From assembly GCF_026210795.1 (NCBI RefSeq), contig NC_089431.1, positions 496,001 to 560,000 on the forward strand: a stretch of DNA of 64,000 nt. The letters are read 5' to 3'. The DNA is from Rhizophagus irregularis (Eukaryota; Glomeromycota; Glomeromycetes; Glomerales; Glomeraceae). A program made the position numbers and the translations under genes. Positions within the stretch are counted from its first letter, which is position 1; the number at the start of each line of letters is the position of its first letter. Shown here in pieces: positions 14,525 to 32,554 of this stretch. The notes below the pieces were generated by a model that saw only the letters and a program-made list of their open reading frames with translations, ran no database searches and was not told where the DNA came from.

Positions 14525-17500
14525 ATGCCAAAGAATTTATGGAAAATCCTTGATTATGAAAAGTATGAGGTAAAAGAAATTCACTTTATTATTGATATGA
14601 TAAATTGCTAAATTTTTTTTTTTAATTAAATAATTATAATTTTTTAAACCGCGCATTTTATTTTAATAGGACTATGTTACGTTTCCTTCAATTGATGAAC
14701 AAGAGATAGACGAAAGAGTAGTCTATATGGATGACTTAGAAAAAAGAAAACAAGCGTATGGAATATGTGGAGAATGTAATGAACCTGGCACAGGAGAATT
14801 TTGGTGTCAACCTTGTGATGCTAAAAGATTTAGAGAAAATTTTAAAAATTGGACTAGTGAAAATGAAGCTATCGATGAATTTATTCAGCAATCTCAACTT
14901 AGTGCTATACATCATACAAAATGTCTTGAATGGATACCTTTCGAAAACTTTAAAAAAGTTACTTATATTTCGAAAGGTAGTCATGGCAAATTATATTCAG
15001 CTGAATGGTCCAACGGATGTATTAATTCCTGGGATATTGAAAATCAGGAATGGAAGAGGTGTGACATGGAAGTTGCGTTAAAAAATTTTGATAATTCTTT
15101 CGATACTCCTGATATAATTACAGATTTCTTAAATGAGGTAATTAGAATGAAAGAATTGATTTGTTGTTTCTTTAGAATTATTTACTAAAATTTTCATTTT
15201 TTTAGATTAACTTACGTTTACAAATTCATACCCTTGACGTTATTCGATGTTTCGGATTAACTCAAGATCCTGATACTAAAGATTATATAATGGTTTTAGA
15301 ATATTGTGATGGTGGAAGTTTGAGAAATTATATAAATAAATCAAAAAATTTTACAGATTATGAATCAAAAATTTTTAAATTATTCCAAATTACGAGGGGA
15401 CTTCTAGATATTCATAATGCTGAAAAAGTTCATAAAGATTTTCATTCAGACAATATATTAATTACCAAAGATGAATTCTTATATATAAATAATTTAAGAA
15501 TGTGCCAACCAGAAAATGAAGAGCAACCAATTAAAATAGGAAAAATATGTGGAGTAATACCTTATATGGCACCAGAAGTTTTATGTGGATGCCAATATAC
15601 AAAAGCAGCAGATATTTACTCATTTGGAATAGTGATGAATGAGTTTCTTTCAGAGGAAGTTCCCTTTAATGATATTTCTCATAACCGCATTTTAGCCATT
15701 AAAATATGTAATGGACTTAGACCAAAAATTTCTGAAGATATACCAAAATTGTTTGTAGATTTGATCAATAAATGTTGGGATGCTAAAGCTGAAAACAGAC
15801 CAACTGCTAAAGAATTATATCAAATATTTATTAAATTGAATTATGATAAATATTTTAGCAATAGTGAAATCTATTTTCAAATAGAAGAAAGTGATAAAAT
15901 CATGAAGAATGAAATAAAAAGCAGTTCAAAAAAAAATAATTCTAAAAATACTCATGTACTCTCCAATTCAATTTATACTAATAAGTTTTTATATTCCGAA
16001 AACTCTCCGGAATCATTATCTCTTCGATTTATTTGCAGGTAAATTTAAATTTATTTTCTTAATTAAATATTTATTTTATTATTAATAACAATTTATTTAT
16101 TCATAGATGTTGTAAGTCAGATGGTCATCAGGTAAAAAAAATTTACTTATTTGTTAAATCTTACTACTAATAATTTACATTAAAATAGTAATAATATTTT
16201 TAATTAATTGTTAAAAGGATCGTGTTATAATTTCTACTATTGATTTAACTACAGAGATTGATGACAAAATTGTCTATATGGAAGATTTAGAAAAAAGAAA
16301 ACAATTGTATGGAATATGTAAAGAATGTAATGAACCTGGCACAGGGTTTTATTGGTGTCGACCTTGTAATGCTAAAAGATTCAAGGATAACTTTAAAAAT
16401 TGGACTAGTGGAAATAAAGATATTGATGAGTTTATACAACAATCACAACTTAATGGTGTATATTATCTTGAATGGATACCTTTTGAAAAATTTCAAAATA
16501 TCACTTATATTGCAGAAGGTGATTTTGGAAAGATTTATTCAGCTGAATGGCCTGAAGGATTTATTAATTATTGGAATATTGAAAATCAAAAATGGTATAG
16601 ATTCAAAAGTTTTGATAAATATGCATTAAAAAGTTTGAATAATTCTTCTGATATATCATATTTTTTAAATGAGGTAATTTAACTTACTTTGTCTTATATA
16701 TAAAGATTGTTATTTGCATTTATTTATTAATAAAAGTATTCCTTTTTGATGATAATTAGATTAAATCTCATCTTCAGTTTTACACTTTTAACATTGTTCG
16801 TTGTTATGGAATAACTCAATATCCAAATACTAAAGAATATATGATGGTTTTAATGTATTGTAAAGGTGGTAATTTAAGATGTTATTTAAATGAATCTAAA
16901 GGCTATATAAACTATGCATCAAAAATTGATATGTTACAAGCTATTGCAGAAGGACTTCTTGGTATTCATAATGCTGGAAAAGTTCATAAAGATCTTCATT
17001 CAGGGAATATATTATTGTATAATGGTTCTAATCCACTTATAAGTGATTTAGGATTGTGTGAATTGGAGCAGCCAGATAAAGTAGAAAAAATCTATGGAGT
17101 ATTGCCATATGTAGCACCAGAAGTTTTACATGGACGTCAATATACAAAAGCAGCAGATATCTACTCATTTGGAATAATAATGAATGAGTTTCTTTCTGAA
17201 GAAATTCCTTTTAATGATATTCCTCATGATTATATTTTAGCTGTTAAAATATGTAAAGGACTTAGACCAGTAATTTATAAAGGTATGCCAAAATTACTTG
17301 CAGATTTAATTATGAAATGTTGGGATGCTAAAACAAAAAATAGACCAACCGCTAAAGAATTATATTATATATTAAAAAAATTGAATAATGAAAAATATTT
17401 TAGCGAATCTGAAATTTATCTTCAAATAGAAGAATGTGATAAAATTAGTGAAGGAAAATTTAAAAATAATTCACGTAAAGATATTTTTTCAGAACATCCA

Positions 17501-17587
17501 TATGCAATTTACACTACTAGACTTTTAAAATTCGAAAATCTTTCAGAACCAGTAAATTCTTCGGATTTACCTTCTCAATTTTCTTGA
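14525..17587 (+). CDS. Tandem dual-kinase protein: K1 pseudokinase fused to K2 kinase
   Basis: Exons 14525-14569, 14670-15137, 15206-16038, 16107-16131, 16218-16673, 16760-17587 give an unbroken 884-aa frame. K1 (residues 1-~448): Cys 48/51/61/64 module, WTSENEAID motif, glycine loop KGSHGK (~117-122), Lys153, HKDFHSDN (Asp249); the DLG position reads NLR (Asn267, Arg269), so the Mg-binding Asp and the Gly are lost. K2: Cys 491/494/504/507, GDFGK (~558-562), Lys595, HKDLHSGN (Asp687), intact DLG (~705) and VAPE. A 25-bp mini-exon joins the units, replacing the usual terminal exons of K1 and first exon of K2. The sequence supports the fusion by splice sites and frame only. The alternative is two genes, with K1 ending at a TAA just after 16038 and K2 starting at ATG 16278. 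TKL-like; pseudokinase regulation of K2 is inferred. Confidence 0.7.
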
Positions 17588-17925
17588 GGTAATTTACTTA
17601 ATTTTGTTATTTTAAACTAACTTACTTGATTAATTATTATTTGTTTAACTGTATAATAGACGATGACGATAATATTTTACCAAATCAATCAGATCCAAGT
17701 AAGTAATTCTATTAACAATTACTATATTATTCACATTTTATACTACTTAACATTATTATTTAATTTATAGTTTCAGAATGTTTAAGTAAACATTGTTTTA
17801 AAGTATATATATTATTTAAATGTATTTAATTGATACTCATGTACATGATTTACCGACCTATTTATTTTATTTGCTTTTACTGTACTGTAGATCTTAATGA
17901 AATTAATCAAGATGATTAGAATGAA
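17588..17925 (+). pseudogene. Relic C-terminal tail exons of K2
   Basis: Sequences matching the tail exons of K3-K6 persist downstream of the K2 stop: ~17661-17699 (DDDDNILPNQ), ~17772-17803 (SECLSKHCFK) and ~17891-17919 ending DLNEINQDD then TAG. In K2 the conserved TCA-G/GT donor has become TGA-G/GT, so translation stops before these exons. They are probably now 3' UTR or dead. Confidence 0.6.
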
Positions 17926-30786: not shown

Positions 30787-32554
30787 ATGGAAATTTTGAA
30801 TAAAACATCTAAAGAAAAGCCAAGAAATTTATGGAAACAAGTTGATTGGGATAAATATCAGGTAAACGCAATTTCACTTTATAATTTAAATATTATGATT
30901 TAAATAATAAATAAAATATATTTTAATTATTTATTTAGACTCATGTTACTGTTTCTTCTATTAATTCTGCCACTAAATCAGAAGAGATTGATGATAGTGT
31001 AATTTATATGGACGATATAGAAAAAAGAAAAGAAGTATATGGTATATGTGGAGAATGTAACGAACCTGGCACAGGACATTATTGGTGTCAACCTTGTAAT
31101 GCAAAAAGATTTGAAGAAAATTTTAAAAATTGGACTAGTGGAAATAAAGATATTGATGAATTAATACAACATTCACAACTTAATGCTGTAATATATACAA
31201 AATGTCTTGAATGGATACCTTTTGAAAAATTTCAAAATGTCACTTATATTACCAGAGGAGGCTTTGGTAAAATTTATTCAGCCGAATGGCCTGAAGGATT
31301 TATTCTTAACTGGGATATTGAAAATAAAATATGGAATCGATACACAGACAGAAAAGTTGCATTAAAAAGCTTGGATAATTCTTCTGAAATTAGTAAAGAT
31401 TTTTTAAATGAGGTAACTGAATAAAAAAATTAATTTATCATGTTATATTTAAATCGACATCATTATAATTTTTATTAAATTTTGTTTTTTTAATTTTAAT
31501 TATTAGATCAAATCTTATCTTCAGATTTATATTCGGGATGTTATTTACTGCTATGGAATAACTCAAGATTCAAATACCAAAGATTATATGATGGTTTTAC
31601 ATTATTGTGAAAATGGAAATTTAAGAAATTACTATCTTAATTCTAATGATGATACGAAACTTTATGATTTATCAAGAATTGCAAATGGACTGTTAGATAT
31701 CCATAATGCTGAAAAATTCCATAAAGACTTACATTCAGGTAATATATTGGAAGGTGGGACTATGTATATAAATGATTTAGGAATGTGTCAACCAGCAAAT
31801 AAACAAATAGTTAAAGAAGAAGGAATTTATGGAGTATTACCATATATGGCACCAGAAGTTTTACGTGGATATCAATATACAAAAGCAGCTGATATTTATT
31901 CATTTGGAATAATTATGAATGAGTTCCTTTCTGAAGAAATTCCTTTTAATGATATTCCTCATGATCATATTTTAACTATTGCAATATGTAAAGGACTTAG
32001 ACCTAAAATTTCTGAACATATTCCAAAATTTCTTGTAGATTTAATTATGAAATGTTGGGATGCTAAAGCAGAAAATAGACCAACTGCTAATGAATTGTAT
32101 CAAATGTTAAAGAAATGTAATGAAACAAACAAGTATTATTCTCAAATGAGGAAATATGGTGATAAAATTAGAGAAAAAAAATTGGAAAACAAATTAAATG
32201 AAAATAAGTCTGAAAGTATTAAAACTCATCCTCAAGCAATCTATACCAGTAGACTTTTAAGTTTTAAAAATCTTTCAGAACCTGTAAATTCATCAGATTT
32301 AACATCTTTACAAATTAATTCAGGTAAATTTTCAATTTAATTAGTTATGAAAAAATCTTATTCAAGTTTTAATAAAATCAACTTTTTTTTAATAATAGAT
32401 GATGCCCCATCAGTATCAACAAATCTAAGTAAGTATAACCATTAATACTTTTTTTATTATAAATTTATATTTTTATTTTTAATAATAACATTATTTTATT
32501 GTTTATTTTAAAGTTTCAGAATGTTTTGGTTGTAAAATTCAGCGAATCAGGTAA
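30787..32554 (+). CDS. Protein kinase K3 (TKL-like, four-cysteine N-terminus)
   Basis: Exons 30787-30861, 30939-31412, 31507-32323, 32399-32428 and 32514-32554 give 478 aa. Cys62/65/75/78 form a C-x2-C..C-x2-C zinc-ribbon-like module, followed by NWTSGNKDIDELIQ. Kinase: glycine loop RGGFGK (~131-136), Lys168 in VALKSL, HKDLHSGN (Asp257, Asn262), DLG (273-275) and MAPE; all catalytic residues present. Between glycine loop and Lys is the ~25-aa family insert with WDIENK. A Ser/Lys-rich tail follows. The last exon reads FGCKIQRIR then stops: its frame differs from K4/K6 and the sixth-exon acceptor seen in those genes (ATAG) is ATAT here, so the DLNEINQEEEI ending is lost. Substrates unknown; cytosolic signalling role inferred. 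Confidence 0.85.

Follow-up and report, generated by a model that had tools for sequence, protein, structure and literature searches.

In JAK (JH2-JH1) and GCN2, a pseudokinase lies directly N-terminal to a kinase: JAK carries FERM and SH2 domains before both kinase domains, and GCN2 carries an RWD and a HisRS-like domain. The pseudokinase-kinase layout is used elsewhere for signalling switches. Plant tandem kinase-pseudokinase proteins (TKPs) are described in PMC6170490 as tandem kinases, one of them degenerate, with no other conserved domain and with repeated origins by duplication or fusion, and are there called polyphyletic; Lr9 is named a tandem kinase fusion protein in PMC10260399. Many origins of plant TKPs are thus on record (PMC6170490), yet in old cases the individual steps are difficult to make out.

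Here, we describe a locus of the arbuscular mycorrhizal fungus Rhizophagus irregularis at which, with a probability of roughly 0.7, a deletion within a tandem of kinase genes left a chimeric exon and a fusion gene (K1-K2) with a predicted 884-aa pseudokinase-kinase chain. Its gene model resembles plant TKPs such as WTK1/Yr15 and RPG1 in holding two tandem kinase domains, one degenerate and one complete. However, plant TKPs belong to other kinase families, whereas K1-K2 comes from the fungus's own expanded kinases, and it is set apart by its pseudokinase-first order and a joint that runs through a chimeric micro-exon. A sequence-only reading of this DNA had likened the protein to JAK and GCN2. 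The layout does agree, but the domain companions do not: for the 884-aa chain, the Pfam hits at E up to 0.01 include kinase models but none of FERM, SH2, RWD or HisRS-like. Lacking FERM and SH2 in that list, K1-K2 does not belong with JAK, and lacking RWD and HisRS-like, it does not belong with GCN2; we infer an origin independent of both. Plant TKPs are the better analogue. In STRAD-alpha, GLR replaces DFG, which is close to the NLR of K1, but STRAD acts in trans on LKB1, whereas K1 is covalently joined to K2 in the gene model. We found no fused tandem kinase of Rhizophagus in the literature listings searched, which does not imply its absence from print. For K1-K2, the genome holds many close relatives, and comparison with them still allows the donor exons, the join and the change of frame to be traced. 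Which of fusion, frame tuning and loss of catalysis came first, and which later, could thus be tested across isolates of one species.

Gene structure of the K1-K2 locus

All coordinates are positions in the window, the 64,000-nt stretch that was analyzed (NC_089431.1:496,001-560,000, forward strand), whose GC content is 26%. Spliced translation of six exons within 14525-17587 yields 2655 nt, or 884 aa followed by TGA, and all five introns have GT..AG borders. The sequence-only reading had drawn this 884-aa chain through a 25-nt exon that takes phase 2 to phase 0; the frame is indeed open, with those phases. The features of the locus are:

14525..14569, forward strand: K1 exon 1, MPKNLWKILDYEKYE, leaving in phase 0, at a position matching exon 1 of the relatives
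14670..15137, forward strand: K1 exon 2, a CxxC-rich leader and most of the N-lobe, with the VALK lysine at 15081-15083
15206..16038, forward strand: K1 exon 3, the remaining kinase domain, leaving in phase 2 versus phase 1 in the relatives
15431-15439 and 15491-15499, forward strand: HKD and NLR (for DLG), respectively, in K1 exon 3
16039..16106, forward strand: intron matching intron 3 of the relatives
16107..16131, forward strand: the putatively chimeric 25-nt exon, CCKSDGHQ after a split Arg codon, with the presumed deletion join inside it
16132..16217, forward strand: intron matching intron 1 of the relatives
16218..16673, forward strand: K2 exon 2, with the lysine at 16629-16631 and the first in-frame ATG only at 16278
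16760..17587, forward strand: K2 exon 3, with HKD at 16985-16993, DLG at 17045-17053 and the stop TGA at 17585-17587
17660..17698, forward strand: relic of K2 exon 4, 3' of the stop, by comparison with the relatives by eye
17771..17785, forward strand: relic of the start of K2 exon 5, by eye
17891..17919, forward strand: relic of K2 exon 6, LNEINQDD and a stop, by eye

K1 and K2 are 58% identical (252 of 432 alignment columns). The best Pfam model for the chain was PF07714 (E 1.5e-81), which matched two stretches in the fusion, the one displayed (553-811) lying within K2; PF00069 also matched two stretches, and its displayed one (147-377) lies within K1. ABC1 passed the Pfam cut-off for the full 884-aa protein, with no stretch of its own. 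By sequence, the solved structures closest to K2 are those of TKL and tyrosine kinases, TNNI3K ranking first (E 1.5e-23). Leaders of the form CxxC...CxxC precede both kinase domains (14670-14910 and 16218-16450), and that of K1 has a weak Pfam match to Stc1 (E 0.004, under the cut-off).

The kinase family

PF07714 is reportedly the commonest motif of the inflated R. irregularis genes (PMC6123716), and 2,533 kinase genes have been counted in this species (PMC10234402). Our searches of the genome (32 contigs, 146,748,485 bases) with parts of K1 and K2 returned at least 163, at least 146 and at least 150 matches. Further family members in the window start near 30942, 43924, 48232 and 53947; a more distant kinase-like match (39% identity) lies on the minus strand at the window edge (4-903). 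We retrieved 20 relatives together with their flanks and a further 115 as exon 3 alone, and compared 141 exon-3 sequences from the matches listed; one of these (L084) is the window gene Ka, leaving 140 that are distinct. K1-K2 shares with this family the PF07714 domain, the CxxC leader and exon boundaries 1/2 and 2/3, its last exons having been lost. However, the PF07714 relatives hold one kinase per stretch (24 stretches of about 3 kb each), while K1-K2 holds two.

The relatives follow a common plan: a short exon 1 that mostly ends in CAG, a phase-0 intron, exons 2 and 3, a short exon 4 and two tail exons, the last two (exons 5 and 6) read by eye only. Exon 1 was located in 23 of 24 relatives (the exception being L020) and an exon-4 candidate in 22 of 24 (all but L007 and L018); in L013, exon 3 is split into two pieces. 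In the stretch examined 3' of exon 3 in L007 (C3:139700-143000), the usual intron 3 and tail exons were not seen, and the sequence there is unrelated and GC-richer, perhaps a mobile element. Among the 140 listed family places, 38 are on contig C3, which carries the window, and 30 on C10. Of the pairs of listed neighbours no more than 20 kb apart, 34 share a strand and 12 lie on opposite strands.

Origin of the 25-nt exon

Exon 4 of the relatives spans 20 to 39 nt in the clear cases, so a length of 25 nt is unremarkable for this family. The introns on either side of the 25-nt exon match different family introns. The left junction intron had a mean score of 40.6 against family intron 3 (shuffled: 19.9, s.d. 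4.1, highest 28.8), and the right one 49.6 against family intron 1 (shuffled: 26.3, s.d. 5.2, highest 34.6), in comparisons with 8 relatives per side and 25 shuffles preserving base content only. Over the 179-base stretch, a chimera of two relatives scored 129 at best, against 88 for the best single left and 86 for the best single right relative, with the two-source alignment having more freedom than a one-source alignment. The best split fell within 16107-16131 in 465 of 552 relative pairs, and upstream or downstream of it in 54 and 33, respectively. An origin from one source alone, either K2 exon 1 or K1 exon 4, was rejected on its poorer fit to the whole stretch.

The most plausible reading of the 25-nt exon is therefore a chimera that combines the head of K1 exon 4 with the tail of K2 exon 1. 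These alignments support that assignment well, although they do not place the join to the base. In such a chimera, the start codon of K2 with its upstream region and the last exons of K1 are gone. As the simplest origin, we propose that two PF07714 kinase genes in head-to-tail order became one through a deletion running from exon 4 of the upstream gene into exon 1 of the downstream gene, which would have taken the last exons and 3' end of K1, the spacer, and the promoter and start codon of K2. The broken exons would have merged into one 25-nt exon. With K1 supplying the acceptor and K2 the donor, both splice sites would have been ready-made.

Reading frame and tails

Exon 3 ends in phase 1 in all 24 relatives and in K2, versus phase 2 in K1. 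From a common anchor to the end of exon 3, K1 has 68 nt; the anchor is present in 16 of the 24 relatives, of which 14 have 85 nt, one 73 and one 67, while in K2 a one-base variant of the anchor gives 82 nt. The K1 tail is thus 17 nt below the relatives' common length, whereas all the remaining lengths are a multiple of three apart. Among 26 exon-3 tails (24 relatives, K1 and K2), a single one is out of phase, and it is the tail at the joint, shifted in the direction that opens the frame. We take this phase change as moderate evidence for fusion, since a freely drifting phase would suit the joint by chance about one time in three. The joint would have come into frame through a frame-shifting indel among the final K1 codons, and transcription and splicing would follow the gene model. 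The gene structure, the unique phase and the lost K1 motif can be read directly from the DNA.

The sequence-only reading had called K2 intact, which holds for its kinase motifs but not for its tail: the TGA at 17585 ends it shortly 5' of the exon-3 donor, at a point where the frame remains open in all 24 relatives.

Kinship of K1 and K2

Of the earlier proposal that two tandem paralogues fused after a local duplication, the fusion is supported by the probably chimeric mini-exon and by a phase change found in 0 of 24 relatives. In 23-gene trees, K1 is a long branch away from K2, but a K1-K2 clade was not rejected in this set (AU p 0.309 for protein and 0.131 for DNA). The two were weakly sisters in a 140-gene exon-3 tree (SH-aLRT 85.5), but this tree was built quickly and may suffer from long-branch attraction. 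In none of 25 sliding windows was K2 the nearest of 22 relatives to K1, an argument against recent duplication or gene conversion. On the other hand, K1 and K2 share four private residues, a number equaled by K1 and L017. A direct K1-K2 duplication is neither demonstrated nor rejected by these comparisons. Measured from start to start, exon 3 of K1 and exon 3 of K2 lie 1560 bp apart, in keeping with a fusion and less than for any other neighbours among the 140 listed places, where the second-smallest spacing is 3006 bp; further fused pairs may exist outside this list.

Constraint and the possibility of a by-product

Branch dN/dS was estimated from pairwise distances (396 codons, 23 genes, a chosen subset of relatives) with bootstrap intervals. 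The K1 branch had a value of 0.39 (0.28-0.57), L008 had 0.32 (0.23-0.52), and K2 had 0.80 (0.54-1.70), an interval reaching above 1. Wider sets of relatives gave 0.41 for K1, 0.76 for K2 and 0.34 for L008; other single branches there were L017 at 0.47, L007 at 0.37, L012 at 0.52, Kc at 0.29 and Ka, a short branch, at 1.14, so that K2 is high yet not the highest. Before and after the DLG site, the values were 0.30 and 0.57 in K1, 0.68 and 1.03 in K2, 0.34 and 0.27 in L008, 0.54 and 0.36 in L017, and 0.34 and 0.47 in L007, while the pair median without K1 and K2 was 0.58 before the site and 0.40 after; K1, K2 and L007 are thus looser 3' of the DLG site, but the family overall is not. Neutral drift simulated at 0.05 per site produced 4.6 stops on average and left the frame stop-free in 1 of 300 trials. 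Since this outcome was so rare and K1 dN/dS is 0.39, the K1 frame appears to have been maintained: K1 was kept as a protein through most of its history, although this constraint may mostly predate the fusion. K2, with 0.80 overall and 1.03 after the DLG site, may be relaxing, which is the main warning on function.

Such relaxation would fit a fusion that is real in the DNA but a non-functional by-product, little expressed or decaying, whose open frame reflects chance in a young event. We regard this as unlikely. The K2 interval above 1, the loss of the K2 tail to a stop, a K1 tail outside the family frame and the origin of the locus in a very large, tandemly arranged family are all consistent with it; however, neither the K1 nor the K2 kinase has an internal stop, and the single out-of-phase tail among 26 lies at the joint and opens the frame.

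The degenerate motif of K1 and its possible role

The loss of a catalytic motif (the Lys, the HRD Asp or the DFG Asp) is one mark of a pseudokinase, a lack of phosphotransfer activity being another, and loss of the DLG/DFG Asp usually abolishes catalysis. Asp-X-Gly is present in 137 of the 140 listed exon-3 sequences (132 DLG, 4 DFG and 1 DVG). Two others have GLG (L125 and L135), three have Asn for the Asp of HKD (L089, L105 and L125), and at least one of the two catalytic Asp residues is missing in five of the 140. Only K1 among those listed has NLR, the sole loss of both the Asp and the Gly; the sequence-only reading had noted this Asn and Arg in a kinase that keeps its lysine and HKD. K1 is therefore probably a pseudokinase. 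L125, L135, L089 and L105 may be independent pseudokinases, judging by their motifs.

Alternatively, K1 could be an active kinase with an unusual metal-binding motif, as its retained VALK lysine, helix-C Glu, HKD and following Asn might suggest, but replacement of both the Asp and the Gly of DLG, found in no other listed sequence, makes this improbable.

With K1 as a pseudokinase, the product of the fusion would be a non-catalytic domain followed by K2 with complete motifs. By analogy with other pseudokinase-kinase proteins, K1 could influence K2 in cis, serving as an allosteric, docking or dimer-forming domain; whether it would be a brake, an activator, a dimer surface or a bait is a choice that sequence does not make. 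More tentatively, and in our view less likely than not, the locus might represent a regulator built in place, in which a deletion with its chimeric micro-exon, a frame-tuning indel and loss of the upstream Asp turned one kinase into a regulatory half, so that the origin of a JAK- or TKP-like layout would have been caught in the act in a fungus.

Splicing at the joint

Against a family splice matrix (68 donors and 68 acceptors from relatives), both donors used at the joint outscore all others in 15990-16300 and both acceptors used outscore all others in 16040-16300. The mini-exon itself has a good acceptor (11.62) and donor (11.39), which its chimeric origin would account for. The acceptor of K2 exon 2 is weak by this matrix (0.65, where the family has a median of 13.93 and reaches down to -3.36), and the runner-up AG, at 16189, scores little below it (-0.14). 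Skipping the mini-exon leads to a stop at the fifth codon, and entering it in phase 1 leads to a stop at the 13th; phase 2 reads through K2.

Two separate products, with K1 stopping at 16042 through intron retention and K2 arising from an internal promoter at the in-frame ATG at 16278 (minus 20 residues; Met in three of five relatives compared and Ile in two), are the least probable arrangement, since only 175 bp separate the K1 stop (TAA 16040-16042) from K2 exon 2, no K1 tail exon lies between that stop and K2, the family exon 1 start is gone, and the mini-exon and exon 2 lack an in-frame ATG before 16278.

Positions 14609-14669 in K1 intron 1 and 16046-16106 in the first intron of the junction match at 70%, which we take as a weak likeness; both are AT-rich.
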